Source: a virus
Strand: one strand, 5' to 3'
IMG/VR virus record: IMGVR_UViG_3300020190_002886
Span: 1 to 21,384 of that record
DNA: 21,384 nucleotides
The position numbers and the translations under genes were made by a program. Position 1 is the first letter of the stretch. Each line of letters begins with the position of its first letter. Shown piece by piece: positions 2,706-21,384 of this stretch. The notes beneath the pieces are model-generated. The model did no database searches. It had not been told where the DNA came from and worked only from the letters and a program-made list of their open reading frames with translations.

Positions 2706-4031
2706 TTAGATTACTACTGCTGTAAATTCTCCTGGGGCAGGTGCATCTGCAAATGTCAATAGAACCTGGTTTGCATTTACAAGAACTACTTCACACTCAA
2801 CTTGTTCACCAGGCATTATTGTAGTATATACCTGTACCAAAACGTGCTCTTCGCCTTTATTATGATCTACTGTAAATGCTACATTAGAACCATCTCCAAT
2901 TAATGCTGTATGTTTAAGAGCTACACTGCTTACAGTTTGTACGTGACCAAAAGTGTCAAAAGTCAAATTCTGCAATACAGACGTTCCAGAATTTGCAGTA
3001 TTTCCTACACTAGAAGTATCAGCATGTTTTACCTCAAGCGTATTAGCAGCGTCATTATATGTAACAACAATACCTACACCAGCAGTGATTGCGCCTAATG
3101 CTGAATCTTGAATAAATTCTACAGAAACATTGTTAGTACTAAGAATGTCATAGTATTCGTTACCATCTTCGGTAAGCGTCCATTTGTCAGAAGTTTCATT
3201 CCAAAGAATTCTAACATTTTCTGCACTACCACGCTCAACTTCAATACCCGCATTTTCAGTTGGTGCACCTGTAACATTACTATTTAATAGAATAATATTA
3301 TCAGCAATAGTTACAGTTTCAGAGTTTACAGTAGTTACTGTACCATCAACCTGCAAGTTCCCAATTACTCTAAGGTTTCCACCAACTTGTGTATTACCAG
3401 AAATATTTGCACCAGCGTTAACTGTAAGAAGACCACCAATTATTGCGGCATCATCAGTTGTAAGTGCTCCTCTGACAGCAGCTGTAAAACCGTCATCATC
3501 AATAATAGAATCAGTAACTTGTTGTGCAGGACCATCCCACTTTATAAGTTTATCGGGAGTAAGTGCATCAGCATTACGTAGTCTAATACTTGGAGCAGAT
3601 CCTTCACCACCACTACCAATAACATCAATTCCTGTATTAGGCGTAATGGTAGCAACATAATCACCTGTAGTATCTGTACCAAGAGCTACACTGTTAGGTT
3701 GTACAGTTGCTTGAATTTCCAAACGTCCTGTAGTATCGTTATAAGCAGCAGTACCAGCTACATCACCTACTAACGCAATAGAATTCAGAGACTTCTGAAT
3801 TTTTGCAAATGCTGTAAGTACAGTATCTGTACTAGTAATTGCAGTTGCAGTTGCAGGGATAGTTAAGTTTGTAAGAACTCTGTCAAGTACAAGGTCTCTC
3901 TGCACACCTTCAGGGTCCATAATTTTTGTAAAGCCATCTTTAAGATAGACTTTTTTAAAGCCAGACCCAGGAGCAGTTGGTGTACCCTGTATCTCGGGTA
4001 ACTGTACTGGGACTAAGAATTTTGATGCCAT
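2706..4031 (-). CDS. Phage tail fibre / whisker-like structural protein
   Basis: Protein of 441 residues built from recognisable fibre modules. The N-terminus (MASKFLVPVQLPEIQGTP) probably anchors it to the virion. Residues about 195-240 hold short repeating beta turns (GNTQVGGNLRVIGNLQVDG). Residues about 233-290 hold TVNSETVTIADNIILLNSN, then GAPTENAGIEVERGS, then WNETSDKW, a series well known from marine-phage and flavophage fibres. Residues about 340-370 carry a GTSVLQNLTFDTFGHVQTVS element. The C-terminal module, about 374-441, has TALIGDGSNVAFTVDHNKG, then VLVQVY, then LLTFADAPAPGEFTAVVI, a common terminal beta domain of phage virion proteins. No catalytic residues are evident. It is the first gene after the 153-base gap with stem-loops, so it may start a separately controlled transcript segment. 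No Shine-Dalgarno sequence precedes it; the leader is A/T-rich. Confidence 0.85.
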   Translation of the reverse strand: MASKFLVPVQLPEIQGTPTAPGSGFKKVYLKDGFTKIMDPEGVQRDLVLDRVLTNLTIPATATAITSTDTVLTAFAKIQKSLNSIALVGDVAGTAAYNDTTGRLEIQATVQPNSVALGTDTTGDYVATITPNTGIDVIGSGGEGSAPSIRLRNADALTPDKLIKWDGPAQQVTDSIIDDDGFTAAVRGALTTDDAAIIGGLLTVNAGANISGNTQVGGNLRVIGNLQVDGTVTTVNSETVTIADNIILLNSNVTGAPTENAGIEVERGSAENVRILWNETSDKWTLTEDGNEYYDILSTNNVSVEFIQDSALGAITAGVGIVVTYNDAANTLEVKHADTSSVGNTANSGTSVLQNLTFDTFGHVQTVSSVALKHTALIGDGSNVAFTVDHNKGEEHVLVQVYTTIMPGEQVECEVVLVNANQVLLTFADAPAPGEFTAVVI

Positions 4032-4047
4032 AATATAAAAGATTTAG

Positions 4048-4057
4048 TTGTCGACAA
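4048..4057. other. 10-bp palindrome TTGTCGACAA upstream of the 441-residue gene
   Basis: A perfect inverted repeat, centred about 20 bases before the start codon. It could be a protein-binding site or chance; in AT-rich DNA a 10-bp palindrome alone is weak evidence. Confidence 0.3.
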
Positions 4058-4070
4058 TAGATATCTTTTC

Positions 4071-4084
4071 AGGAGGTATCTCCT
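4071..4084 (-). other. Small stem-loop AGGAG-ATAC-CTCCT
   Basis: Perfect 5-bp stem with a 4-base loop in the leader of the 441-residue gene, about 40 bases before the start codon. The purine-rich arm AGGAG is locked in the stem, and it is too far from the ATG to act as a ribosome binding site. Confidence 0.4.
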
Positions 4085-4111
4085 AATAATAATATACCGA
4101 ATTCCTGCGAA

Positions 4112-4126
4112 ACTTCTATAAGAAGT
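4112..4126 (-). other. Small stem-loop ACTTCT-TAT-AGAAGT
   Basis: Perfect 6-bp inverted repeat with a 3-base loop, 13 bases downstream (in the minus direction) of the large stem-loop. No run of T follows. It could form part of a compound RNA structure with its neighbours. Confidence 0.4.
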
Positions 4127-4139
4127 AGCTAACTTTTTA

Positions 4140-4177
4140 AGGTGTAGGGGGATGGTTACCCAACCCCCTTTACACCT
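4140..4177 (-). promoter_or_regulatory. Strong RNA stem-loop with GNRA loop just after the 2,232-residue gene
   Basis: In the minus-strand RNA, AGGUGUA pairs with UACACCU, GGGGG pairs with CCCCC, and UGG pairs with CCA. The loop is GUAA, a GNRA tetraloop. The only flaws in 15 base pairs are a 2-base AA bulge and one U-U mismatch. It begins 7 bases after the stop codon of the 2,232-residue gene. What follows is UAAAAAG, not a U-run, so it does not look like a classical intrinsic terminator. A role as an RNase barrier, processing site or partial terminator that lowers or shields one side of the operon is inference. On the plus strand the loop would be UUAC and no gene lies upstream. Confidence 0.7.
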
Positions 4178-4184
4178 ACCCGTG

Positions 4185-7100
4185 TTATTGACTCTTCTGC
4201 ATAATGCTAAGCCGGTAATTAGGATCAAAAAAGTCACGGATATTCTTATAACCTGTTAAGTCTACAAGGTCTTTGTATACTTTAGGTTCACCTTTTTCAT
4301 AAAAACCTACCCGTCTTTGGTAAGTACCTCTTCTGAAAACGCCTGCCATAAAAGTGTCATCTTCAGGATCAGGTCGATCAGCTCCTACTAAATCATAAGT
4401 TCCCATGAGAGCGTATGCTGCTAGATGTTCTGTAGCTTTATATAACTTAAGTCCATCATTAACCAAGTTGGTAACCTGGCTAAAGTTTCTGAGATATTCG
4501 TCAAAACTTCCAATACCAGGGATGGGAGTAAGAGATGCTGTTTCCTGCTTAAGACCCCAGATAAGTCTAATAGCATTTCCTTCAAACATACCCAACTTTT
4601 CATCATCATCTTTTTTACGTCTGACATAGCTGAGTAAGAGTAGAGACACAGCAGTAAGTAAAATACCAGCGTAGAATTCTTTACTCGCTTGAGCTGCTTT
4701 TCTGCTATAAAAAGCATTAACAGGGGAGTTCTTTAAAAGACGAGGACTGAAACCACCCATTAGTAAATGTTTACCCATTTCTTTATATGAGTATAGATTA
4801 CCAATTGCAAGCATTGCACGCCAATATCCCATAGCTGCTTCTTCGCCTTCCCAGTTTGCTCTTAAGTTACCAAGACGGTTGATTGCTTGAGGAACTAAAT
4901 ACTTTTTAAAGAAGTACATCATTTTACCTACAAGTGTTTGTTCAACAGAAGTCATGTCACTTTTTGCATAAGCACCCTGTGCACGGCGAGTTTCAGAATA
5001 AACTATTCTTCTCAGACGTTTTTCGTCATCTTTTGTAAAGTTTACATCCGGTCTGATAGTGATCCTACCATCAGGAGTTTGTGTGTATGCTTCATATGCT
5101 GAAACCATTACTGTATCACCATTGTCATCTTTTACTTCTTCTCTGGTAATTGGATCTATTACAGCAAACTTGTAACTATCCATTACAGCCAGCCAAACAG
5201 TTATACTCACTTCAGTATCACCCTTATCTTGTAAAGCATACGCTAGCTCTTGTATAGAACTAAACTTCTCGGCTAATCTTCTGCTTTTTGAACCAGTTGT
5301 TAGATTAAGATATTTGATATAATCTTTTTGAGCTGGGTTATACATTCTGTAAAGCATTGTCTCAGTAGACAGATTACCAAGTTTTCCCCAATCAGCAAGA
5401 TACTTTCTGAAAAATCCATTGTAACCATAAATCTGAGACTTTGCCCATCTATAATTCTGAACACCGTAGTGTCCAGATGAATGCGTTGCTAAGAATGCCT
5501 GAATGTTACCAGACATAAAGTTCTTAAACTGTGCAGCCACATCAAATCCAAGTCTACCAAAAGATGCAATTTTGAAAACACCATTGAGCGCTTTTTTAGC
5601 TTTTCTATTTGTGTCTTCTTCATATTGACCAGAAATAAACTTGCGTTTTTCAAACTGAAGTAACTCTTCAAGCTTTGAAAGATCTTGGATACGTTTTTTA
5701 TCTGTAGCAGTATTAGAATTTCTAATCTCAAGTTCTCTACGAAAATCTCCAACAAGATTGAGGATGTGCTCCGCAACCGGTTGAACATCAGTCATTGCTT
5801 GGTTGATATAAGATTCAAACAACCATTTAGCACCAGCATTAACAGCATCAACTGTTTGTAAATTAGTGTCATATTGGTCATTAAATCTGAAACGTACAGA
5901 GTCTGGACCCATATCACCATACAAGTTGGTGACAGCATCTTCCTGACTAACTCTTACAGCAAAGAAATTGTCTCTCATTTTAGCAAGTTCACCAGACATA
6001 CCTTTAGTAAATCCTTTTGCAACAATATTTTCTATAAGAGTTGCTTTAGATGCTGGCACTTTATAACCTAATACTTTACCTGTAGTTTTTCTTTGCATAT
6101 CAAAGAACATCTTCATAAACGCATTATAATATGCAAATGCTGATTTGTCCTGCGATAGTTTAACATACTTAGAGTTTATATTATCTGAGTTTTCAAATCC
6201 GGGTAGTACTTCAATAACACCATTTACTATTTTTAATCCTCTTGGTAGTGGTGTACCATCTGCAAGTTCTTGATAGTCTTTATTGTAAGCATCCTCACTC
6301 AATCTTCTGATAGTATATTTACTACTAGGTTTTTGTTCCATATACTGAGGATCTGCGGGAACCCTATCATACAAGAACATTTTTGTTGTTGCAAACTGAA
6401 TATCCTGCTCTAGTATTGAAACATAAGGAGAGTAGTGGTGCTGGTTATACCATTTTCCAAATATTTTTTCTTCTGCTTGAAACTGAACTTCTGCAAATGC
6501 CAAATCAGTACTAGCACTTTCAATACGAATATTATCACCTGCTGCAATAGCATCTTCCAATCTTAACTTAGCATTGTCCATTAAAGACTTCGCTCTAAGC
6601 AAGTTGTTCTTACGCTCTTCGCGTTCCTGCTCATAAAACTTATTTAACCGCTGAGTTGAGATATTTCTAAGCTCAGCACTTAAATCTCTCAATCTGCTTG
6701 CGTCCTCTTCAGTAAGAAATCTAAATATATTAAAAGACTTATTAGCTTCTTTTAAACTTTCAATCTGCTGGGTTATTTTATCTAATTCATTTCTATCTTG
6801 TTCAGACAAATATCTAGGGTCAAATTGACCGTCTCTCTTATAAGGAGACATAATCTGTCTTCTTTTTTCAAACAAGTTAGTAAGTTCAGGATCACCCAAA
6901 CCGGCAGTAATACTTTCTATCTCACTGTAAATTGATTCTAAAGCTTCAAAGTATGCAGTATTTGGTGTTGTAACCATATTTTCCTCCTCCCACTTGCGAA
7001 GCATTTCAGGATTATTTGCATACTCAAGTTTCTTTCTGTTGTATATACGATCAAAAAGATTTTGATTTACGTCATATACAAATAGAGTATTAAGTGCATC

Positions 7101-10100
7101 TATATATTCTTGATATTGAGAATCTTGTTTAGCAGCGTCGTTTCTCAATTTTTTAATTTCAATATCAATTTCACGCATGCGATCAAAATCTTCTTCGTCA
7201 ATAAGTTCTTCATTACCAAATCCAACACTGTCAAGAATTACTTCTCTCTCCATATAAAGCAGCTCAAGCTTTTCTTTAATCTCAGGCGAGAGTTTTGAAA
7301 GGTATTCGTAATAAACATCAATGAATGGAAGAGAAGAATTTTCACGCATCCAATCAGTATGATTTCTGGTAAGCTTTTCTTTTTCTTTAATCAAAGACGC
7401 TACCTCAAGTTTTAGTTTTTCATACTGCTCTTTATTTTTGTCCTGTGCAGCTTGATCGCGTTCTCTTTTTACTTCTTCAATTTTATTACGCAACGCTCTA
7501 AGTTGTTGACGATAAACATTAAACTTATTATCATATGCTTCGCTACTAGGTTTTACATAAGTAGCAACCTGATAAGTTGAAGATTCACCGTTTTCGTCAT
7601 AAGATTGAATTGTTCTAATTTCACTTACAAGCGAATTCATTGACTCTACAGATCTACCTCTTCTGAAATTTTCAAGTAATGTTTGTAACTCAGACTGCTG
7701 AACATCATTAATAAATGTAGATTGAGCTTCTGCTTGTGCGTCTTTTAAATAGTTAACAAAAGATGCAACAGCTAAATCACTATTTCCCGCTGAAGATATG
7801 AATTGATCTGGTGAAATTCCTAAGAAGTTAATTAGCTTAGGATTGCTAGCACCAATATACATAATACTATCAGGATCAGTGGTTCCTTCAATGATGTTTC
7901 TTATACTCTCCGTATCATAATTAAAACCAGTCTCATAAATTAGCTTAAGTCTCTTAAGCTCGAGTTGTTTTACCTCAATTGCATTAACTATTCCCTTTTT
8001 ACTTGGGTCTAGCTTTTCCATTACTTCATTATAAGATTCCTTATTTAGAAACTTTAACGCCTTTAATTTTAATTTATCAATACCCTTAAGAGGAACACCT
8101 GCAATTAACTTTTGTATTTCCTCTTCGAGCTTTTTAATCTTTGGTTCAAGTGCTAATCGCATATCTTCACCAACAGCCTCAAATGTCTTTTCTGAGAAAG
8201 TAGACTGAATCATTTTTACAAAAAGTGGTACAGCATATTCTCTATAATCCGCCTGCATAATATCAAGCTTTGCTGATAAATCTTTAACAAGCTGATACAT
8301 AAAACCCGTTTTTTGAATCTTACCATCAAACTCAGCTCTGTTAATTTGATTTTCAACAAGTCTCATAATCTCACGAGTATTGTCTAGCATTTTTTTGTAG
8401 ACCAATACTTTTCTGGATTTTGCTACTTCATCTGTAATTGATAACGCCTCATTGAAATTTTTAAGCATGTTATTGATATCAATATCCATCTGCTCAACTA
8501 CACGTGCAAACTTAAGTGACGCCGCAATATCACCACCTTTTTCAATAATATCTTTAAATGTTTTAAGCGTTTCTATTCTCTTGTTTATCGTATCAATTTC
8601 TTGATCGTATCCTTCTTTTGATTTAAGATTTGTTCTTTCACCATAAAGCGCATCAATATTGTCAGAAACAGCTTTTTTAAGTGAATTAACAAACAACTTA
8701 TACTGATCAGCAGTCATGTCAAAAGCCATTCTTTCTTCGTTTACTTCTTGCTGATTCTCTTCGGATTCACCAATTTCAACATACTTTGATACTACTTTTT
8801 TTATTTTATCATATTCTCTTGCACCAATTTCTGAAAACGCTGCGCTTCTATTATCACCCTCAATACTGACCATTCCAGCATATTCATAGAAGTTGCCTTC
8901 AAATTTCTGAACAGCAAACCCTTGATATATTTTGTTGATGTCAGCTTGGTATATTAAAGCAATAATTTCTTTCTTACCTACATTGATACCGTTTTGTCTC
9001 AACATATATTCATATGCTAACAACTGAGCATTCCAGGTATCATAAGTTGATCTTTTCTGACCTTGAAATTCTACAGCTGTACCATTTGTTGAGTTGATTT
9101 TAATCTTGTTATTTGCAAGTTCTTTATATACTCTATTGATATTGAAATCAGTAACACCATCTTTTTGAGGTACAACAAGTTGTTTAACTTTTTTAGTCTT
9201 AAAGTCTACAATATGCAGCTGACCCGTAATATCAATTACAACCATATCAAGTCTACCAAGCATCATTGTACGACCCGTCTCAGAAGTTGATACACTTGCA
9301 CCAACAGTAAGTTCAGGTAGAATGATATTGCTAGCAGACACATTGGAACCAAGCACATCAATAACTTGAAGTGCCATCTCAAACATTTCTTCATCTTTTA
9401 AATTCTGTATCTGGAAAGGATTCTTTTTACGATATCCTTCAAGAATTGTATTGAACTTCTCCTCTGAGAGTATCTCTCTTAATCTTTTATTCTCTTTAGT
9501 AGCAGCCTCTTGAACTTCTTCAAGTACAGCATGCATAAACGTACCGAACTCTTTAAAATCCGTATAGTCTTGAACAGTTGTAAATTCTGATGAACCAATA
9601 AAACCACTTACACTTACAGATTCTAAGGGTTTTCTTCCTTGCGCTTCTGCTTCTAAACTATCACGAAAAAACTTAGCATTCTTTTCAGCATTTTCTAAAA
9701 GCTTTGTTATTGTCTCTACTTGCTTAGCATTTTGTTTAACTCGTGGATTACTGATTACAGCTTTTAATGTTTCAATCTGAGAATTAATACGATCTAATTT
9801 GTATTGAGTATTGCTTCTTCTCAGATTTTCATCAGGTTGACTATTAAATAAATCATTTACCTGCTTAGCATCATCCAAACTATATGATGTTCCTGCTTGA
9901 TTAAAATTAATATAGAACTCTATCTCAGCTGTATTTAGCAAGACAGCAAGATTTTCAAAACTCATTTTTTCAGGGAGACTTGAAATATCGATTACACGAT
10001 TACCCCTGCTATTAACTAGATACACGATTTCAGAAATCAAGTTTTTTAACCATCCAAAAAACTGTTCCATCAATTGCATAAAATCTGAAGCAGGTCTAGT

Positions 10101-10883
10101 AGGGTTAGTTGCAAACTCTTGTTTTACAGCACGTTGCAACATTTGAGTAACAAACTCTTTATTTATATCTACAGAACTATAACCTGTACCATTCTTATAT
10201 CTATCAGCAATTGTATTAAAAAATTCAATATCTAATTTTTTACCTGCTCTTAACAACTGATCAAACAACGGTCTGTTCTCAGCATAGAGTGTATTAATAA
10301 ATGGGTGAAGAACTTCTTCAATAGCAATTGAGGTGTTAGCTCTACCATTAACTAAATAAACTGTACCATTTTTAAAAAAACCATTTATTCTGTCTACGTT
10401 AACACCATGCTCAGACTGAATCAATTCTTCAGGATTTACAAAAGAAACTTTTAATCCTGGAAAAACTTCCGCCATTTTATCCAGTGTTTTTTGAATAACA
10501 TCTTGCTGCTCTGATTCTTTTAGCTGTTTAGCACGCATTTGAGGAGTTAATACTCCTGTAATATTAGCTTGCGGAGTGCTAAAGCTTACTTCATACAAGT
10601 TTTCACCATAAGTATAGTATGGTTTATAATAGAGACCGATACCTTTCACATCTGGTGAAGCAGTCCACTTTTTCAACCCATCTAGTTGTTTAGGTGTAGC
10701 AAGATATCTACCAGGAGATATTTGTCTTAATCTGAACGCTTTAGCAACATTAATGTCACGATTACTCAACTTATAATCAGTTAGATTATATTGAGCAGAT
10801 TCAATAACCTCATTTTCGAGAAGTGATTTTATATCGCTCTCGTTGTACTCTTGTCCGTTGTATAAAAATTTACAAGTACTCAT
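4185..10883 (-). CDS. Giant virion protein with degenerate zincin, RecB-type nuclease and C-terminal hydrophobic segment
   Basis: A 2,232-residue protein, probably packaged and ejected with the DNA as in crAss-like phages (inference). Residues about 160-300 resemble a phage zincin peptidase (GTVYLVNG, then IEEVLHPFINTLY), but the first zinc histidine of HExxH is E189, so the site reads EEVLH. Residues about 440-630 form a RecB/Cas4-like PD-(D/E)XK nuclease: GTFMHAVLE with H451, a PE pair at 523-524, GRLD with D546, VDFKTK with D560 and K562, and QLLAY with Q620 and Y624. All expected motifs are present, so it is probably active. Residues about 700-1450 are rich in charged coiled coil, clearest at 1125-1175. 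Residues about 1770-2060 are aromatic-rich and unrecognised. A hydrophobic helix, about 2070-2087, is followed by RRKKDDDEK. The start lies 9 bases after the polymerase stop, with no Shine-Dalgarno sequence; coupling is likely. Nuclease call strong, targets unknown. Confidence 0.85.
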   Translation of the reverse strand: MSTCKFLYNGQEYNESDIKSLLENEVIESAQYNLTDYKLSNRDINVAKAFRLRQISPGRYLATPKQLDGLKKWTASPDVKGIGLYYKPYYTYGENLYEVSFSTPQANITGVLTPQMRAKQLKESEQQDVIQKTLDKMAEVFPGLKVSFVNPEELIQSEHGVNVDRINGFFKNGTVYLVNGRANTSIAIEEVLHPFINTLYAENRPLFDQLLRAGKKLDIEFFNTIADRYKNGTGYSSVDINKEFVTQMLQRAVKQEFATNPTRPASDFMQLMEQFFGWLKNLISEIVYLVNSRGNRVIDISSLPEKMSFENLAVLLNTAEIEFYINFNQAGTSYSLDDAKQVNDLFNSQPDENLRRSNTQYKLDRINSQIETLKAVISNPRVKQNAKQVETITKLLENAEKNAKFFRDSLEAEAQGRKPLESVSVSGFIGSSEFTTVQDYTDFKEFGTFMHAVLEEVQEAATKENKRLREILSEEKFNTILEGYRKKNPFQIQNLKDEEMFEMALQVIDVLGSNVSASNIILPELTVGASVSTSETGRTMMLGRLDMVVIDITGQLHIVDFKTKKVKQLVVPQKDGVTDFNINRVYKELANNKIKINSTNGTAVEFQGQKRSTYDTWNAQLLAYEYMLRQNGINVGKKEIIALIYQADINKIYQGFAVQKFEGNFYEYAGMVSIEGDNRSAAFSEIGAREYDKIKKVVSKYVEIGESEENQQEVNEERMAFDMTADQYKLFVNSLKKAVSDNIDALYGERTNLKSKEGYDQEIDTINKRIETLKTFKDIIEKGGDIAASLKFARVVEQMDIDINNMLKNFNEALSITDEVAKSRKVLVYKKMLDNTREIMRLVENQINRAEFDGKIQKTGFMYQLVKDLSAKLDIMQADYREYAVPLFVKMIQSTFSEKTFEAVGEDMRLALEPKIKKLEEEIQKLIAGVPLKGIDKLKLKALKFLNKESYNEVMEKLDPSKKGIVNAIEVKQLELKRLKLIYETGFNYDTESIRNIIEGTTDPDSIMYIGASNPKLINFLGISPDQFISSAGNSDLAVASFVNYLKDAQAEAQSTFINDVQQSELQTLLENFRRGRSVESMNSLVSEIRTIQSYDENGESSTYQVATYVKPSSEAYDNKFNVYRQQLRALRNKIEEVKRERDQAAQDKNKEQYEKLKLEVASLIKEKEKLTRNHTDWMRENSSLPFIDVYYEYLSKLSPEIKEKLELLYMEREVILDSVGFGNEELIDEEDFDRMREIDIEIKKLRNDAAKQDSQYQEYIDALNTLFVYDVNQNLFDRIYNRKKLEYANNPEMLRKWEEENMVTTPNTAYFEALESIYSEIESITAGLGDPELTNLFEKRRQIMSPYKRDGQFDPRYLSEQDRNELDKITQQIESLKEANKSFNIFRFLTEEDASRLRDLSAELRNISTQRLNKFYEQEREERKNNLLRAKSLMDNAKLRLEDAIAAGDNIRIESASTDLAFAEVQFQAEEKIFGKWYNQHHYSPYVSILEQDIQFATTKMFLYDRVPADPQYMEQKPSSKYTIRRLSEDAYNKDYQELADGTPLPRGLKIVNGVIEVLPGFENSDNINSKYVKLSQDKSAFAYYNAFMKMFFDMQRKTTGKVLGYKVPASKATLIENIVAKGFTKGMSGELAKMRDNFFAVRVSQEDAVTNLYGDMGPDSVRFRFNDQYDTNLQTVDAVNAGAKWLFESYINQAMTDVQPVAEHILNLVGDFRRELEIRNSNTATDKKRIQDLSKLEELLQFEKRKFISGQYEEDTNRKAKKALNGVFKIASFGRLGFDVAAQFKNFMSGNIQAFLATHSSGHYGVQNYRWAKSQIYGYNGFFRKYLADWGKLGNLSTETMLYRMYNPAQKDYIKYLNLTTGSKSRRLAEKFSSIQELAYALQDKGDTEVSITVWLAVMDSYKFAVIDPITREEVKDDNGDTVMVSAYEAYTQTPDGRITIRPDVNFTKDDEKRLRRIVYSETRRAQGAYAKSDMTSVEQTLVGKMMYFFKKYLVPQAINRLGNLRANWEGEEAAMGYWRAMLAIGNLYSYKEMGKHLLMGGFSPRLLKNSPVNAFYSRKAAQASKEFYAGILLTAVSLLLLSYVRRKKDDDEKLGMFEGNAIRLIWGLKQETASLTPIPGIGSFDEYLRNFSQVTNLVNDGLKLYKATEHLAAYALMGTYDLVGADRPDPEDDTFMAGVFRRGTYQRRVGFYEKGEPKVYKDLVDLTGYKNIRDFFDPNYRLSIMQKSQ

Positions 10884-10892
10884 AGGATAACA

Positions 10893-13800
10893 TTAGCATT
10901 TAGTTTCTATTTCACCATTGTTTGTTTTATCAGTCAGTTCTTTAGATGCAATATCTATATCTGACACTTGTGGTGTTACGCTAGAAGGTAAGCTCTTATC
11001 AGGATTGCTAGCATAAGCGATGAAATCATTAATCTCTTTTCTAGAAAATCCTGCTAAACTGATACCATCAATGACTGTTGGTTGGTATAATTGATATTCC
11101 GCTTGAACACCCAAAACAGCTCCAGCAGTTTCAATACTCTGACTTAGCAAATCAGACATTGTTGTCAAATCACTTTTCTCTGAACTTCTTAATTTAGTCA
11201 GTACAAATATCTCACCAGTTCCCGCATTTTTAATCATAGCAGGAAACTCATATCTATTTGTAATAACGTCTTCCATTCTAACACCAAGGGGTGCAACTTG
11301 AGCATTCATAAGGTTCCTATTCTCACCCTCATAAGATCTCATATCTAAAGAAATAACATACTTCCCTGAACCAAGATCTTTAATAATATTATCAGAATAA
11401 GCAAAACCTTTCTTGTTAGCTTTTATAGTCTCAACACCAAATATTTTCTTTGCCATTTCAATATCCTGAATAAATACTGCATTTACAGTAGGTATCTTAG
11501 AATTTTTACTTGTGGCAGCTGCATCTAGCATTTTAACATATAGCTGGAACATAACATCTTTAACTTGTCGCTGTCCATTAAAGAATTGCTCAAATTTAGA
11601 TCGGCTAGATATTGCAGATATAAGTTCTTCCGTGTATGTATTAAGATTCTTGTATAAATCTGTATTAATATACTGCGCAAAGTTGCTAGCTTTTCTACCC
11701 ATACCATTTCTGATAATCTCATGGAAAAAGAGCTTAACCGCAATTTTTCTAGCACGAGCGTCAACGCTTTTCAATAAAGCATTATATCCATCAATAATTT
11801 CTTCTTTTAATTCAGGTACAAGCTTAGCTTTTGTATTCATTTGTAAAATGAAGTAAGACCTTGCAGCACCCGCATCTTCTTTTGAACGAATACTAATGCT
11901 TCTGACAAATGGGTTTGACGAATACTGATCATTTAAATATTCTAGATCTTCTTCTAATGTTGTAAACTTAGATGTATCTGAAACACTTCCAAACCAAAAC
12001 TCTGGTCTGAACATTTCTTTGAGAGTATCTTTTAAGAATTGATCATCAGCATTTATACCAGGATTTTCTGCCTCAACTCTCATCTTATCAAGAATAAGCG
12101 TACCTATAATTACATCCGCCATCTCTTCTTGCTCTTGAAATATGTTTCCGAACAGATTACGCAAAGAAGTCAAAGGATTGCTTCTAGACAACATTACTCT
12201 TGAAAGCTGAGTATTCATGTCAGATACAGCTGCTGCTAAAGGATTCCACACTGTCTCTCCTTTAAACAATTCAGAGCTGTTTTGGAATATACCCGCATTG
12301 TTCTTCAACTTTCCAATAGATTTACTAAATCTATCAAGCATTGCCGCACTAGGTTTAATTCTTTTAAACAAGTTTACAATTCTTCCTGCATCCATAATAC
12401 CAAATGACTGAGCAGCTTGTCTTGAATACATATCAAGAAGAATATATTTCTGAGCTTCCAAGCTCAAAGGTTCTCCAGATTTAGCTGTAATGGTATAACC
12501 TAGTTCAGCTGGTGTCAAGAGTTTTGCATCTAAGCGATTATTATCAATTTGAGTAGGAGGTGTAAATTTCACTGAAATGTTTCCGTATATAAGATTTCGA
12601 CGAGAAGGACTAAGAATCTTAGCAGCAGCTAAATCTTTAGATACTTGTGCTGTAAGTAATTTTCTCTTCTGATTATTTACCTCTTTATAGAACATTTTTG
12701 TATAAGTACCATTGACATCTGAGTCTTTAACAGTATCAACAGCATTAATAACTTCAGGAAGCATGTTTGTAAATACAGCCATTTCAATTGGTAAACCTAA
12801 ACCAATCATTGCAAGTGTCACATTTAAGTTGACATCATTAAGCTGAAGTAATGCAGGAATAGGATCTTTAGAACCATCGGCAAACATACCTAAAGCATTA
12901 CCAACCAACTGTATTGAACGATATGATTCGTTACCACCAAAAGAGTCAAAGAATTTACTATTACCTGCTTCGTCTGTCAAAAACCAAATTCTTTCATCTG
13001 CTTTTAGTATAAGTTTATTTGCACCAACCAGCGCTAAAAACTTATTGAAGTTTGCTGTAATACCAATACCATCTTTGTTTACAGCATTTAATCTGTTTAC
13101 GTTAATGACACCGTCAATACTAAACGCATTGTATTTTGCAGCTATAGATTCTGGAGACAATCCCAAAACATTGATTGCTAGATTTTTAAATATACTCGGG
13201 TCTGATCTTTCTTCAGAGTACAAACTATCAAAGACAATCTTGTTACTTATGATAGCAAGCTTTGCATCAAGATTTTGATTTTGATATGTCTCTACAGGTA
13301 TCTGCGGATTTTCTCTAAATTGCTCCGAGGTAAACGGTAAACCATTAACTGCTAAAACTAACTGAACAGCATTAATATAGTTGTAAAGTTTAACATAAGC
13401 TTTCTTATCAAGCTCACTAAATTGAGATGCTAAAAGATCAGCCCTACCTTTTGCTTGACGAAGTTTTGAAGAAAGTTCTCCTTGCAGTTTCCAATTTGCT
13501 TGCTCTTCGTCTGCTTCATTTGTATTTCTTACAACCATGTATTCTTTAAATGCTGCTTCTTGAATATTTTCAGCACCCCACAATTCTGCTAATTCAGGCA
13601 TTGTAGGTAGACCCATTAATTGCATTACTCTATCAACATCTTCATCGTAAACTACCTCATTGTCTTTTCTAGCTTCGTAGAATTCTTGCATTAACTCACG
13701 ATGAGCTTTTTTAATTTCATGACGGAAAATACTATTACTTCCTACAGAATTTATAAGTTCTAGGAACTGAGCATCATTTCTACTAACCTCTTCATAACCA

Positions 13801-16800
13801 GTGTAATCACCATATACATGTTTTTTCCCTGCAGCATCTATATAAGATGCGTAACCATGTGCATACAATGAGTCAATATCCAAATCAGAACCAGCCAATA
13901 AGTGAACAAGCTGCGGTGCGATTATGGTATTCTTATAAGAGGAATCAATAAAGTCTACAATTTTAAATGCAATCATTGATCGCTTATCTTCTGTAGGAAT
14001 ACGAGTAGCAAATGCTTTAGTCATTTTATCTTTAAAGAGTTGATACTCTTCAAAAGAATTAAACTCGGGCATAGGTACAATGACTTCTACAAAATATGTA
14101 GTATTACCCTGAGCATCTACTTCAGTAGTAATACCAGGATATCGCGTACCAAATCTTTCAGCATCCAAATACTGACTATACTGACCAGCACCTTCAACCA
14201 TTTCTTGCTCAACAGAATCTATAACTCGACCGGTTTGTTTATCGTATAGCAACTTGTAACCAAAAGATGTTGCATGGAAATACTTACCACCTTTAACTTT
14301 TTCGTCAAATACTTTATTACTATAATGACTAAAGAAATAGTACTGGAATGTTTTACGTATAACTGGAAGGTTTACATTAAACTTTGGAACACCATCTTGA
14401 GTTTCAAAAAACTTCAACATATTGCTATCAGCACCCTGATCTACCAAAGCTTCTCTGATCGTATCTACTAGCTCGCCAATATTGATATTACCATTTTCGT
14501 CTCTTAATGCTTTCAACATTAATTGCAAACGTGCATTAGTAGAACGAGCTAATGTCGTATTATATCTAGAAAGAATGTCGGCAAGTTGTTGAGTTTCAGA
14601 TGTTACACGCTCTCTATTTTCAGGAGTTGACTCCGCAAGCATTCTGTCAATAGTATTTTGAATATCTGCGGGCAACAAGATTTTAGCTTGTACAGATGCT
14701 TTAGATTCATCAGATACACCACTGGTTTCAACCTGGTTAAATTTAAATCTTGCATCTACACGATAACTACTTTTATTCAAAGAGATATAATTACCATCTC
14801 TTTCTTCCATGCTTATAGGTAAACTTGTAACCTTTTTAGAAGCCGTTGTATCCATCAACATATCTATTTGATGGTACTCCATAGCATTTAAAAGATCATG
14901 TAGCTTTTGTCTGTGAGGACGAGGTAACCAGAAACCATGTATTGTTGAATAAAGTTCTTTAATACGGTTTTGTATCAACTCATGCTCAGTATTACCCGGC
15001 TCAATAAGTCTTGCTCTCTGACGTAAATCATAGATTGTACGATAGGCATTTTCCAAAGTAGCTTTTTCTTGCTCATTGGTTACGTTCAATACACTTACAT
15101 CATTACGATTAATGATATGCTCAGACTGTTTGAAATAGTTTTCACGTCCTGCGTGTACTGTCTTGAATGAGTTTAAGACTATACGATTATCTTCTAAGTA
15201 TGAAATTTCTTTATTTGTAAGTCTACGATAGTTTGCTTCAATTAAAAGATTTCTAGCTTTTTCAGGTAATCTTCCAGTCTCTTGATAAAAGTCTATACGG
15301 TGCATTAATAACGTTAGTGACTGACCGTCAAATACTTTTTCTTTACCGTTTTCTTCTCTAATCAAACCATCTTCACCAACCAAAGCATCAAATTCTGCAC
15401 GTATATTATCATCTTCAATATCATCTATGCTGTCGTATTGTCCTGCAAGTATATTGTTTCTGTTAAGCAATAAGGTAATGTCATCAACGTGAGCTACATT
15501 ATACCAACCTCTTTTTCCTGTACTACCAGCAGCAAGCAATGATTTATTACGTTTAAAATAATCAATGGTGTTTTTAATACCCATTGCTCGATCCCCATCA
15601 ATAATTTGGTTAACAAACAAACTGTTAATCAAATAGTTAAAATAATAGTCTCTTAGATATTGCTCATCACCATTAATACCTAAGTCTTTATTGCTAAAGT
15701 ATACAGATTGGAAAGCTGTACCACGACTACTCGCTTTAGTCTTAGTACTATCGAGTGTATTTACTACACCGTTTCTAATTTCTCTTGGTCTTGCTCCACC
15801 CTTTAAATTAATAACACCCTTATCATCTCTTTTGACAATATCATTGCCAACTAGATTGTCTACATACTTTTTAAAGGACTCTTCAGCGTATAAAGACAAC
15901 TGCTTATCTAATTTTGATTTTGTCTCTGTATCTAGATTTTTGAAATCTATTTTATCCTCTCCAGATCTTTTAGCAATTTCAATAAGTTCATCTCTCAAAG
16001 AAGCCCTTTCAAATTGATTACTACCTTCTTCAAATTCCGTAGCAGATTTACCTGTTAAAAAGAAATCATCTAAATTATTGAATTGATAAGCTCTTAGTTT
16101 TTTAGACTGTGCTAATGCTGTATCGTCAGTAATAATTTCACCAGCTGGGGTTTTCTTAGCATTAAAATTATTTAGGTAGGTATTTGTACCTTGCTCATAT
16201 AAACTTTCACGCAACGACCTTGAAGACCATTCTCGTTGTATACGATTAAACTCTTGCTGAACAGCTGTTCTTAAATACTGAACAGGTGTATTTTCAAATG
16301 TAATTTTTCCAGCTACAATTTTAGGCGCAAAGTTTATATACATTGCGTTAATCAAGAAATTAGTTTGAGAAGCTTCAAGCTGTGTAAGATTCCTGTTAAA
16401 TATTGTTACTTCTCCTGTCAAGGATACTTTCTCATCGTTCTCCGTAATCATCTGATGCTCAGACTTTAATACTGATCGTTGAGAAAAATTCATTAACTCC
16501 TGCAAGTACTGGGACTTGTCGTTTAACCCTTTATAATTAGCGGATCTAACTCTTTGACCATTTACTGTTTGCTCAAGTCCTGCATTGACACTCACTGATA
16601 GATTTTCAAAAAATGTCTTTAAAGCAAGTCTTCTATCCACAGTTTTCTTATCTCCTTCAGCACTATCCTTTAGAGCAGCTGCAATAAATAAATTATCTTC
16701 AAACCAAGGTTTAAGATATTCACTGTAATAAATGCTTGAAGCAAGTGCTTCTTCAAGACCTTTGTTTTTAATTTCTTGAAGGAGTAACACTGCTGGTGTA

Positions 16801-19800
16801 TACTTTACGTATCTATAAACAGGTTTTCCCTCAGCATTGGTAACTACAGACGGTAACTCTTTAGGGTCCATTTTCAGCACATATTTCATTGCTCTTCGCA
16901 ATGATGCATAGAAGCTGTCATTACCAGATGTTCTAGAGCTGCTAAGTATATCAAGTTTTTGTCCCTGAATAGTATTAAAGCGAACTCCTTTAGACATGTT
17001 TTTAGCCATGTCACTGAGATTCTTAAAGAAGTTCTTGGACAAATATTCATCACTATGAGCAAAACTTTCAAATGCATAATAGTGTCTAAATACATTTTCT
17101 TCTTGTCTAGGAAGAACTCCATTCTCTTTTACGTCAATTGAAAGTAAAGAAAATCTAAGAAGTGATTTAGGGATATTAACACCCAAAACCTGCATGTTTT
17201 TGTACAACGAGTCTACTAAAGACTCAATCTTAACCTCTTGATTAGAAACAATAAGATCTGTTATTCTACCTGTATTCTGATAAATAGAAAGTGCAAGATT
17301 AGAAAGTGTTTCAGCAGCTTGTTTGTATTCTTCTGTAGAAGCAGATTTTGTATTAGTAGATTTAAGCTTGGACTCTAAAGCATCCATCTTAGATTGAACA
17401 TCCGCACGTGTAAGTTTTTCCACCTGTGATGTACTAGTCTGTGATGAAATAAGCTGATTTTGATCGTCATACTCTTCCTTAGTATTAAGCTTAGTAAGTA
17501 ATGAGTCCATCTCAGCATTATGAAATGTGTCAATTACTTGAGAGTATAAAAGCAAATCACCACCAATAGGTTCAAAGCTTTCATTAAATCTTATATTCTT
17601 TTCAAGAACATTAAATACAGCTTCTAATGAACGAGCTTCTTCAATATTTTCATCATAGCGATATTGCTCACTAGCTAATGCAATTCTAGGAATAATTTCT
17701 TCCGGCATAGCATTCGCTGTAATCTTCATCAACAAGTTAAAGATATTAGAACCGTCCACCATGCGTGTATATTTCACGCCATTTTCATCTTCTGTTTCAT
17801 ATTTAACTAATGATAGGAATCTTCGCATTTCACGAGGAAGACCTTCTAAAGGATTAATATTAAAGAATGAAGAGTCTAAATCAGCAGAAGTACCAAGCTC
17901 ATCTTCTGAAATATCAAAGTCATCTTGATTAAACGTATCTTCTTCTATAATATCTTCTTGCTCCCTGTGAGCGGGAGTAGAGCCGTAGTTAATATGCTTT
18001 AATATATTTTTTACCTGATCAAAAAGTACGTTAACCGATTTGTCATAAACTTGAGATACACCTGAATCATCAAAGTTATCATAAGATGGATTACCTGTCA
18101 TGTTCTCAGCTTTTGGAACAAATGCAAGCATTTGACCATCGACATTGAATTGTAATACACCATGTGCTAAAATAGCACGCATGTCTTCAAGTCTTGATTT
18201 CCAGTTTTCCTGAATAACACTATTCTTACCAGGATTTGTAGCAATCCAACTTTCAATGTTAAAGTCAGACATTGCAAGAAGTTTTCTCTGCAAATCAAAC
18301 TTGTCACGAAGAGTTAGTTTAATATCAGGATTAATTTCAGAAAACTCACGAGGGTCAAAATTCATTATCTCATAAGCAAGTCTATACGCTAATTGCTTTT
18401 GATCTTCTACTGGGAGAAAACTAGATACTCTTTTTACACTACCGTCTTCCTTCTGAACAATTCTATGTCTAGTAGGAGCTAGTTCAAAAGCTACAGAACC
18501 TGTTTCATAATTACTGATAACAGATGCATTTTTATAATACCCTGTTGCAATTCTACCATAAATATTATCGATAGTGCTAGCATTCTTAGTAAAGAACGCA
18601 ATGATATCTTTAAGTAAGCTAAATAATTTAGCAAGCAAACCCACAGGTTTAGAAGCTTTAGGTTTTGTCATATACGACTTAAAACCATCCGCTAATATTT
18701 CTTCCGCAATAAGGTTGTCAATTCGTTCCTTACTACCTGTCAATTTTCTTCGCTGGACAAATGCTTTACGATATTCAGCTGTAAAATATTTGTTGTTCTT
18801 GGTATCTGACTTAACCTGTTTTAAAAGCTTTGCACGTTCTTCAGTAGTCATAAGCTTTCTGAATACATGGTGAAAAGCTTCGTGATACACTGTACCACCA
18901 GATTTAATAGATTTATTAAGATAGATAACACTATCCTTATACATACCTAAAATGGTTCCATTAGTTTCAACCATTTCAAGAAGCTCAGACAAGTCTTTCT
19001 CCTCTATTCTTGCAGATTTAAGATTTTCTTGAAGCCATGCTTTTTCAGACTGAAGTCTTTCTTCATTAAAAGGTTCAGCATAATTATCCTGAAAGTCTTC
19101 TTCGACAGACAGGATACTATCTTCTACAGGGATGTCTAACCCAGTATTCTGTACCGGATTATTAATTTGAGCGTTTTCTGATCTAACCCCTGATTCTGTT
19201 GCAATTTCATTTTTAGCTGACGCAGAGTTTTGATACGCAGCTTCAAACGCAACTTTACTAGGCTTAGCTGTAAGAACTTGATAGAATTTTGTATTGAATT
19301 TTCCAACTTTAACATCGTTGACACGTAATGAATAAATAGGTCCTTCACCAGGCAACCCTGGTGTTGTTTGTGCAATTATTAAAAAAGGATTCTTTTTTAA
19401 ACCGCTTTTCTCATATGCTGATTTAACTTCGTCAGAACCCGTGTTTACAACTTCTTCGAACGTACTTACCATTGAGTCAACAATACTTCTAGTAATACGC
19501 TGCACACTTTGTGTAACACGTGAATTATAATTTTTTAATTCTGCATCTTCAGGATGTCTTTCCTGAAGTTTAGTTAGATCGGCATATAAATCAATAACAC
19601 CTTCTGGTGTATTTAAATCATGAATATTTAAGGATGTGTACTTAGCTTTTAACTTTTCAAGTATACTATTCGATTTAAATCTTTTAATATCATCTTTAAT
19701 TGTGTCTATTGGAAACTCAATGCTTATGGGTTTAATCAGACCCCCATATACTCTTTGCATCGGTTTTAACGTAAATACCAAAATTGGTGCACCCTCATTG

Positions 19801-21365
19801 TTCTTTCTAATATTGATATTGACAGCAACACCACCACGAGGATCGATTTGTATTTGATTTTTATTAAAATCAAAATTTAAGTCATTGAGTTGCTCATCAC
19901 TTAATCCCTCTGCTGTACTTAATGCGCTTGCAATAACATCAAACTGATTTGCTATTCTAGCATATAATCCAATAAACTTAGCGTTATTGAACATTGTTGA
20001 TGTAACAGGATTTGAAGTAACTAAACCAGATTCCGTTTTAGTCAAAAGATATTTCTTATTATACGGAATAGATCTGGAATTCATAGTATTAATCCATCTA
20101 CCTAGATTATTTTTACCAAGATAGTCTACTGCAAATTCTGAAATAGAACTATATGATTTACCATTAAAATCAATAATTTGATTAGCTCCTAATTGAGATT
20201 CAAATGACCAGTTAGTCGCATCAATATTAAAGTCTTCAGGGTTTACTTGTATACTAGAACGATTCGTATTAGTAAATAGAACAAGTGGTACTTGAGTAGT
20301 TTTACGATTTGTTTCTAAACCGGTTCTTTCATCTAATGTTACAACATCTACTGTAGGTGCAGTTTCAGGATTATTGATTACGTAGTCATCTAATGACTGA
20401 CTAGTAGTACCGGAACCGGCGCCATAAGAAAATAGATTGTAACTATTTTTGAAAAGATTTGTTACATCTGTAACAGGTCCTCCAAGTTCTACTTCTGGTA
20501 AAACTTGATTCTCAAACTGCTTATAAATTTCGTAAGCCTTTTTAAGCTCATTAAGATCAGCATCTGTAAGTTTTGAGTACTGACCATTTCTGTTTGTTAC
20601 TGCAGTATTCTGGATTCTTTTAAGGTGCTCTGGATTACTAAAATCAACTATTGTTGTATTGTTGTTATTATCAACAAAGCTGTAATTATTTAAAGTAAAG
20701 ATTTCAAATGTTTCACCTGTACCTTCTACAACACCTACAAGAATAAAACCCTGATCTTGTTTAGGTCTTGCTACAGTAAGTACTTCAGTAAAACCTACAG
20801 ATTTTTCTAGTTTTTGTATCTGTGCCTCATTCTCAAATGTCTCATGAGTTCTATTAGCAAGCCCTGCTAAAGAAGGATTAGATGATGCTTCTGAATAAAT
20901 ACGAGATATACGATCATCTGCAATATCACCAACTTTAATTGCAAAAACTCTGAAAGCTGAATTAATTGCTTCTTTAGATTTTGCAGCTAAAATCTCAGAT
21001 GCCGGCTTTTGACCATCTAAGATCATGTCTCTTATTCTCAAGCCTGAGCGCATGTTTACATCATAGAAGATTGTTTCACCTCTATTAAATGTTTCACTTG
21101 GTGCTGGTAAAGCAGGTCTTGCAAAAAGATAATCAGTAATTACATCACCATTTAAAGACACATACTGACCGTCTATTTTTACAGCTTCAACTACAAGAAA
21201 ACCAGGTAGACTTACAATGTATGTCTGTAAGTCCTCGGATAAATTTTTAAGTCTAATGTAAGGTGATTTACCAATCAGCTTTGTACGTGCAGCTGTTGTT
21301 CTATTCAGCAGAAATGTTAGATTCTCAGGTGATAACTGCTTAATGGTGTTATCAAGAAAATCCAT
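10893..21365 (-). CDS. Giant zincin-RNA polymerase fusion, crAss-like virion RNA polymerase
   Basis: A 3,490-residue protein. The crAss-like RNA polymerase core spans about residues 1890-3330, with motifs in the expected order: FVNQIIDGDRAMGI then DYFKRNKSL (1917-1943), FDGQS (2012-2016), LNSFKTVHAGRENYFKQSE with K2068 and K2079 as probable beta-barrel lysines, RIPTEDKRS (2455-2463), the metal-binding loop GSDLDIDSLY with D2494, D2496 and D2498, NKDGIGITAN (2763-2772), and FADGSKDP (2828-2835). The family is a single-chain, two-barrel polymerase carried in the virion to transcribe early genes. Residues about 800-900 form a zincin peptidase: VYHEAFHHVF (H828, E829, H832), with AEEILADGF (E888 or E889) as probable third ligand. 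Residues 1-700 are unrecognised. Acidic linkers lie at about 745-770 and 1136-1166. It is longer than the roughly 2,180 residues of phi14:2 gp66; the surplus is mainly N-terminal. The ATG fits, though only 19 bases of upstream sequence are visible. Confidence 0.9.
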   Translation of the reverse strand: MDFLDNTIKQLSPENLTFLLNRTTAARTKLIGKSPYIRLKNLSEDLQTYIVSLPGFLVVEAVKIDGQYVSLNGDVITDYLFARPALPAPSETFNRGETIFYDVNMRSGLRIRDMILDGQKPASEILAAKSKEAINSAFRVFAIKVGDIADDRISRIYSEASSNPSLAGLANRTHETFENEAQIQKLEKSVGFTEVLTVARPKQDQGFILVGVVEGTGETFEIFTLNNYSFVDNNNNTTIVDFSNPEHLKRIQNTAVTNRNGQYSKLTDADLNELKKAYEIYKQFENQVLPEVELGGPVTDVTNLFKNSYNLFSYGAGSGTTSQSLDDYVINNPETAPTVDVVTLDERTGLETNRKTTQVPLVLFTNTNRSSIQVNPEDFNIDATNWSFESQLGANQIIDFNGKSYSSISEFAVDYLGKNNLGRWINTMNSRSIPYNKKYLLTKTESGLVTSNPVTSTMFNNAKFIGLYARIANQFDVIASALSTAEGLSDEQLNDLNFDFNKNQIQIDPRGGVAVNINIRKNNEGAPILVFTLKPMQRVYGGLIKPISIEFPIDTIKDDIKRFKSNSILEKLKAKYTSLNIHDLNTPEGVIDLYADLTKLQERHPEDAELKNYNSRVTQSVQRITRSIVDSMVSTFEEVVNTGSDEVKSAYEKSGLKKNPFLIIAQTTPGLPGEGPIYSLRVNDVKVGKFNTKFYQVLTAKPSKVAFEAAYQNSASAKNEIATESGVRSENAQINNPVQNTGLDIPVEDSILSVEEDFQDNYAEPFNEERLQSEKAWLQENLKSARIEEKDLSELLEMVETNGTILGMYKDSVIYLNKSIKSGGTVYHEAFHHVFRKLMTTEERAKLLKQVKSDTKNNKYFTAEYRKAFVQRRKLTGSKERIDNLIAEEILADGFKSYMTKPKASKPVGLLAKLFSLLKDIIAFFTKNASTIDNIYGRIATGYYKNASVISNYETGSVAFELAPTRHRIVQKEDGSVKRVSSFLPVEDQKQLAYRLAYEIMNFDPREFSEINPDIKLTLRDKFDLQRKLLAMSDFNIESWIATNPGKNSVIQENWKSRLEDMRAILAHGVLQFNVDGQMLAFVPKAENMTGNPSYDNFDDSGVSQVYDKSVNVLFDQVKNILKHINYGSTPAHREQEDIIEEDTFNQDDFDISEDELGTSADLDSSFFNINPLEGLPREMRRFLSLVKYETEDENGVKYTRMVDGSNIFNLLMKITANAMPEEIIPRIALASEQYRYDENIEEARSLEAVFNVLEKNIRFNESFEPIGGDLLLYSQVIDTFHNAEMDSLLTKLNTKEEYDDQNQLISSQTSTSQVEKLTRADVQSKMDALESKLKSTNTKSASTEEYKQAAETLSNLALSIYQNTGRITDLIVSNQEVKIESLVDSLYKNMQVLGVNIPKSLLRFSLLSIDVKENGVLPRQEENVFRHYYAFESFAHSDEYLSKNFFKNLSDMAKNMSKGVRFNTIQGQKLDILSSSRTSGNDSFYASLRRAMKYVLKMDPKELPSVVTNAEGKPVYRYVKYTPAVLLLQEIKNKGLEEALASSIYYSEYLKPWFEDNLFIAAALKDSAEGDKKTVDRRLALKTFFENLSVSVNAGLEQTVNGQRVRSANYKGLNDKSQYLQELMNFSQRSVLKSEHQMITENDEKVSLTGEVTIFNRNLTQLEASQTNFLINAMYINFAPKIVAGKITFENTPVQYLRTAVQQEFNRIQREWSSRSLRESLYEQGTNTYLNNFNAKKTPAGEIITDDTALAQSKKLRAYQFNNLDDFFLTGKSATEFEEGSNQFERASLRDELIEIAKRSGEDKIDFKNLDTETKSKLDKQLSLYAEESFKKYVDNLVGNDIVKRDDKGVINLKGGARPREIRNGVVNTLDSTKTKASSRGTAFQSVYFSNKDLGINGDEQYLRDYYFNYLINSLFVNQIIDGDRAMGIKNTIDYFKRNKSLLAAGSTGKRGWYNVAHVDDITLLLNRNNILAGQYDSIDDIEDDNIRAEFDALVGEDGLIREENGKEKVFDGQSLTLLMHRIDFYQETGRLPEKARNLLIEANYRRLTNKEISYLEDNRIVLNSFKTVHAGRENYFKQSEHIINRNDVSVLNVTNEQEKATLENAYRTIYDLRQRARLIEPGNTEHELIQNRIKELYSTIHGFWLPRPHRQKLHDLLNAMEYHQIDMLMDTTASKKVTSLPISMEERDGNYISLNKSSYRVDARFKFNQVETSGVSDESKASVQAKILLPADIQNTIDRMLAESTPENRERVTSETQQLADILSRYNTTLARSTNARLQLMLKALRDENGNINIGELVDTIREALVDQGADSNMLKFFETQDGVPKFNVNLPVIRKTFQYYFFSHYSNKVFDEKVKGGKYFHATSFGYKLLYDKQTGRVIDSVEQEMVEGAGQYSQYLDAERFGTRYPGITTEVDAQGNTTYFVEVIVPMPEFNSFEEYQLFKDKMTKAFATRIPTEDKRSMIAFKIVDFIDSSYKNTIIAPQLVHLLAGSDLDIDSLYAHGYASYIDAAGKKHVYGDYTGYEEVSRNDAQFLELINSVGSNSIFRHEIKKAHRELMQEFYEARKDNEVVYDEDVDRVMQLMGLPTMPELAELWGAENIQEAAFKEYMVVRNTNEADEEQANWKLQGELSSKLRQAKGRADLLASQFSELDKKAYVKLYNYINAVQLVLAVNGLPFTSEQFRENPQIPVETYQNQNLDAKLAIISNKIVFDSLYSEERSDPSIFKNLAINVLGLSPESIAAKYNAFSIDGVINVNRLNAVNKDGIGITANFNKFLALVGANKLILKADERIWFLTDEAGNSKFFDSFGGNESYRSIQLVGNALGMFADGSKDPIPALLQLNDVNLNVTLAMIGLGLPIEMAVFTNMLPEVINAVDTVKDSDVNGTYTKMFYKEVNNQKRKLLTAQVSKDLAAAKILSPSRRNLIYGNISVKFTPPTQIDNNRLDAKLLTPAELGYTITAKSGEPLSLEAQKYILLDMYSRQAAQSFGIMDAGRIVNLFKRIKPSAAMLDRFSKSIGKLKNNAGIFQNSSELFKGETVWNPLAAAVSDMNTQLSRVMLSRSNPLTSLRNLFGNIFQEQEEMADVIIGTLILDKMRVEAENPGINADDQFLKDTLKEMFRPEFWFGSVSDTSKFTTLEEDLEYLNDQYSSNPFVRSISIRSKEDAGAARSYFILQMNTKAKLVPELKEEIIDGYNALLKSVDARARKIAVKLFFHEIIRNGMGRKASNFAQYINTDLYKNLNTYTEELISAISSRSKFEQFFNGQRQVKDVMFQLYVKMLDAAATSKNSKIPTVNAVFIQDIEMAKKIFGVETIKANKKGFAYSDNIIKDLGSGKYVISLDMRSYEGENRNLMNAQVAPLGVRMEDVITNRYEFPAMIKNAGTGEIFVLTKLRSSEKSDLTTMSDLLSQSIETAGAVLGVQAEYQLYQPTVIDGISLAGFSRKEINDFIAYASNPDKSLPSSVTPQVSDIDIASKELTDKTNNGEIETKC

Positions 21366-21384
21366 AAACTTGTTAATGTCCTGT

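Follow-up and report, generated by a model that had tools for sequence, protein, structure and literature searches.

We have confirmed a conserved RNA hairpin between a giant gene and the tail-fibre genes of an uncultured, apparently crAss-like phage, and we consider, at a probability of about 0.5, that it is an intercistronic RNA element that defines or protects the 3' end of the giant-gene mRNA. The hairpin lies on the minus strand of the window, that is, the whole stretch of DNA that was analysed, which is an entire virus record of 21,384 bp and a fragment of a genome. The hairpin is a clear example of RNA structure under selection in a gap between late genes. How crAss-like phages keep the expression of giant and fibre genes apart is little known, and the papers on crAss-like transcription considered here describe modules in crAss001, not borders of the giant-gene/fibre kind. 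If our reading is true, crAss-like phages would tune virion protein amounts with operon-internal RNA hairpins. The features of the border, listed 5' to 3' on the minus strand, are as follows.

4185-10883, minus strand: giant gene of 2232 aa, which encodes a PDDEXK_1 domain (aa 444-567) and flanks the hairpin upstream
4178-4184, minus strand: 7-nt spacer from the stop codon to the hairpin, equal in length in three near relatives
4140-4177, minus strand: GNRA-capped hairpin without a U-tail, from fold and conservation
4112-4126, minus strand: second small hairpin, ACUUCU-UAU-AGAAGU, conserved
4087-4097, minus strand: GTATATTATTA, putative promoter piece
4069-4086, minus strand: third small hairpin around AGGAG-AUAC-CUCCU, conserved
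4047-4057, minus strand: TTGTCGACAAC, putative degenerate form of the TTGTAGAAC motif
2706-4031, minus strand: 441-aa virion/tail protein, first in the tail-fibre cluster, downstream neighbour of the hairpin

RNA folding bore out the geometry that the first-pass annotation had described, with 15 base pairs (6+6+3), an AA bulge, a U-U mismatch and a GUAA loop in the minus-strand RNA (AGGUGU-AA-AGGGGG-U-UGG-GUAA-CCA-U-CCCCCU-ACACCU). The minimum free energy is -24.4 kcal/mol (z = -3.9 against dinucleotide shuffles, equalled by 1 of 200 shuffles), and the hairpin ranks first in stability among the local hairpins when both strands of the window are scanned; its homologue stands 11th when the hairpins on both strands of a 97-kb relative are listed. 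RNA of the opposite strand forms a nearly equally stable fold that has a UUAC loop, and the GNRA loop is therefore confined to the sense strand, as the annotation had claimed. Its distance of 7 bases from the giant gene was likewise correct, since the stop codon occupies 4185-4187. A weak outer helix, in which UAAC of the stop codon region pairs with GUUA a few nucleotides 3' of the hairpin, is kept in relatives. The lack of a U-run was also confirmed: the tail reads UUAAAAAGUUAG, and the hairpin is absent from the list given by a terminator scan of the window. Accordingly, the element shares with intrinsic (Rho-independent) terminators a stable GC-rich stem shortly 3' of a stop codon, but the U-tract directly 3' of the stem is missing. 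A search against Rfam models gave zero matches, even at E up to 1. Coding explanations were rejected: read-through of the stop codon would add just a few codons in both the window and the near relative L003, and a 1-nt deletion in L003 disrupts a 74-aa frame that spans the hairpin (4013-4237).

Searches that started from the giant protein, from its C-terminal part or alignment, or from the G008 protein gave just three near and two distant relatives. The near relatives are IMG/VR contigs of 97, 97 and 121 kb that share the region at a protein identity of about 90%. A DNA search of phage genomes gave no match, indicating no close isolate at the DNA level, and no relative was found among bacterial genome contigs. 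The terminase, portal and major capsid proteins of the 97-kb contig G001 match phage families, its gene map follows the crAss-like plan, including several giant genes, and the giant protein matches weakly the crAss-like phage cr118_1. Based on these matches and this map, the window and its relatives probably form an environmental crAss-like group in or near Crassvirales. Elsewhere in the window, a 3490-aa frame (10893-21383) is probably cut by the record end, the homologous gene of G001 having 3650 aa; G001 also carries tRNA-Arg(tct) and tRNA-Thr(tgt) genes (L088:13266-13340 and 16602-16676).

On the one hand, four-fold degenerate sites differ between the window and L002 by 44% in the giant gene and 41% in the 441-aa gene, and between the window and L003 by 52% and 47%. 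On the other hand, the 153-nt gap outside the hairpin diverges by 10% (L002) and 6% (L003), far below the synonymous 41-52%, indicating that the whole gap is under selection. The hairpin itself differs from that of the window at 1 of 38 positions in L002 and at 11 of 37, plus one deletion, in L003, to which L004 is identical over the hairpin region. Between the window and L003, two G-C pairs changed to A-U on both sides, three pairs are maintained as G-U, the U-U mismatch became A-U, and one pair was lost with local re-pairing in its place. Compensatory changes of the kind that the covariation analysis proposed in the annotation would look for are thus present, and the fold is kept (-23.5 kcal/mol in L003, against -24.4). 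When random mutations of equal size and transition share were applied, the observed stability was reached in 43 of 20,000 trials from the window to L003 and in 5 of 20,000 in reverse; a pair-count shuffle control (54/500) was not significant by itself, as the distinct hairpin sequences number just three and in effect represent a single divergence event. Across the window and its near relatives, the loop reads GUAA, GAAA or GCAA, its change being limited to the free N position, and the tail is UUAAAAAG in all near relatives, with no U-tract in any. Owing to this conservation, the hairpin is beyond chance; it is real and selected at the RNA level. The annotation had favoured an RNA-stability, processing or phage-specific termination element between cargo and fibre genes; the compensatory changes, the kept GNRA loop and the missing U-run support such an RNA element, and the three functions that it named look alike in the sequence.

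We consider that the hairpin most likely belongs to the well-known class that marks mRNA ends or intergenic processing boundaries. It would form in the late mRNA right 3' of the giant-gene stop codon and set the 3' boundary of this segment. An endonucleolytic cleavage, or a factor-dependent termination, further downstream would come first, and 3'-to-5' exonucleases would then halt at the hairpin. The giant-gene mRNA would thus be set apart from the following fibre mRNA, with a different stability, and the GNRA loop would serve as a stability cap rather than as a specific signal. This role is consistent with the kept structure and loop, the low divergence of the gap and the lack of a U-tract in the near relatives. 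Also, the distant relatives are in line with it, since G008 has a different U-less hairpin and L210, which has no fibres, a U-tailed terminator. The giant protein is probably required in fewer copies than the fibres; guarding the upstream mRNA is therefore not an obvious need, which argues against this role.

Where the 5'-most segment of an E. coli operon is stabilised, its 3' boundary in most cases carries a stable hairpin that lacks a uridine tract (PMC5927463). The hairpin resembles the protective 3' hairpins of the malE-malF type (PMC5927463) in being stable, conserved, located at a gene border and devoid of a uridine tract, and in that the flanking gene products may be needed in unequal amounts. 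It differs in belonging to the late operon of a phage, whose host is presumably one of the Bacteroidota, and in having a giant gene upstream. The same likenesses and differences apply to selective RNA processing and stabilisation stem-loops (PMC4423207). Given this likeness to bacterial operon hairpins, a 3'-boundary role is the most economical reading. The intercistronic CUUCGG hairpins of T4 are also tetraloop-capped, very stable and placed between phage genes; they have a UUCG-type loop and several copies, whereas the present hairpin has a GNRA loop and a single copy.

In G008 (29% identity over the giant protein), the border spans 74 nt and contains a perfect hairpin of 13 bp, which has the loop UUCUACC, no U-run and a weakly U-rich tail. 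This hairpin is unrelated to that of the window and lies 14 nt upstream of the fibre start codon. It may be a 5' element instead of a 3' one, and could equally match the small hairpin at 4069-4086 in the window, which is likewise just behind a TATATTAT stretch. Because the loop of G008 has 7 nt, a GNRA loop seems dispensable for the role; what recurs is a hairpin at the giant-gene end, not its GNRA loop. In L210 (27% identity), the giant gene ends in AAAAAAAGGGAGC...GCUCCCUUUUUU, a classical U-tailed terminator, and no fibre genes are present there; the same absence in G018 and G020 makes all three uninformative on the giant-gene/fibre border.

Somewhat unlikely in our view, the hairpin may be a U-less terminator, used by the host RNA polymerase with a Rho/NusG-type factor or by a phage RNA polymerase, that ends the giant-gene transcript ahead of a new late promoter within the gap. 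The true terminator of L210 and the weakly U-rich tail of G008 would fit this, and GTATATTATTA and TTGTCGACAAC, both 3' of the hairpin, suggest such a promoter. GTATATTATTA occurs just twice in G001, each time shortly upstream of a gene, and the TTGTAGAAC motif stands about 30 nt ahead of several late-gene starts and is a likely phage promoter or operator. Against termination, the UUAAAAAG tail is retained throughout the near relatives, while classical U-tailed terminators exist elsewhere in the same genomes. In G001 they follow the capsid gene and occur where convergent genes end; hence the phage has terminators of this kind and uses none here.

The conservation of the entire gap, whose downstream part differs even less than the hairpin when the window is compared with L003, also raises the reading, which we regard as unlikely, that all 153 nt form a structured 5' leader controlling the stability or translation of the fibre mRNA. 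The two small conserved hairpins 3' of the main one and the G008 hairpin directly before the fibre start codon agree with a leader. However, the main hairpin keeps a fixed 7 nt from the stop codon and is 108 nt from the fibre start, and with promoter-like sequences downstream of it, the fibre mRNA may not contain the hairpin.

It is very unlikely that the GNRA hairpin is a specific recognition site at which a phage RNA polymerase or RNA-binding protein ends or processes late transcripts without U-tracts, in a system that would also use the GNRA hairpins that follow the major capsid gene and precede the exonuclease gene. Besides the present one, two GNRA hairpins do occur on the sense strand in gaps between late genes, with conservation in G003, but GNRA hairpins number 5 genome-wide against 1-5 in shuffled sequence, a slight excess from which no system can be claimed. 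Hardly probable at all is a role of the hairpin as DNA, a conserved boundary or recombination joint beside exchangeable fibre genes, since the similarity of the window to L002 over the hairpin (1/38), lower on both flanks and reversed in favour of L003 just downstream, is set against pairs kept through G-U and a sense-strand-only GNRA loop, which point to RNA.

The annotation had also raised the same stem-loop at other gene borders. Apart from the GNRA-capped late-gene hairpins above, this did not hold: the hairpin is not a sequence family, an exact search of viral contigs matched only the window's own record, and one weak second match (21 nt) lies inside a gene on the other strand. A REP/BIME-like repeat family, with many similar copies per genome, was rejected, as the hairpin is single copy in the window record and its relatives. 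In cultured crAss001, several gaps between late genes contain stable hairpins, some U-tailed and some not, indicating that such elements are ordinary in the crAss-like group. The gap 3' of the major capsid gene in G001 (L089:8262-8457, that is, G001:28262-28457), nearly identical in G002, contains in order a U-tailed terminator, a conserved GNRA hairpin (ACCUGGG-GCAA-CCCAGGU) and a conserved CUUCUGA...UCAGAAG hairpin.

In G001, TTGTAGAAC sites lie at L089:16660-16694 and 5300-5328 and at L092:12110-12130 and 12829-12865, and the motif once forms a long palindrome, GTTCTACAA..TTGTAGAAC; TGTAG sites number 16 upstream against 6 in control windows. The window is a mosaic at 4127-4187, matching L002 near-exactly over the hairpin and being closer to L003 just downstream, which suggests recombination at the border. 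At 3228-3468, within the 441-aa fibre gene, L002 and L003 share a stretch of about 240 nt without any difference, and the window differs by 13-42% from both, a pattern of recent exchange in this gene.
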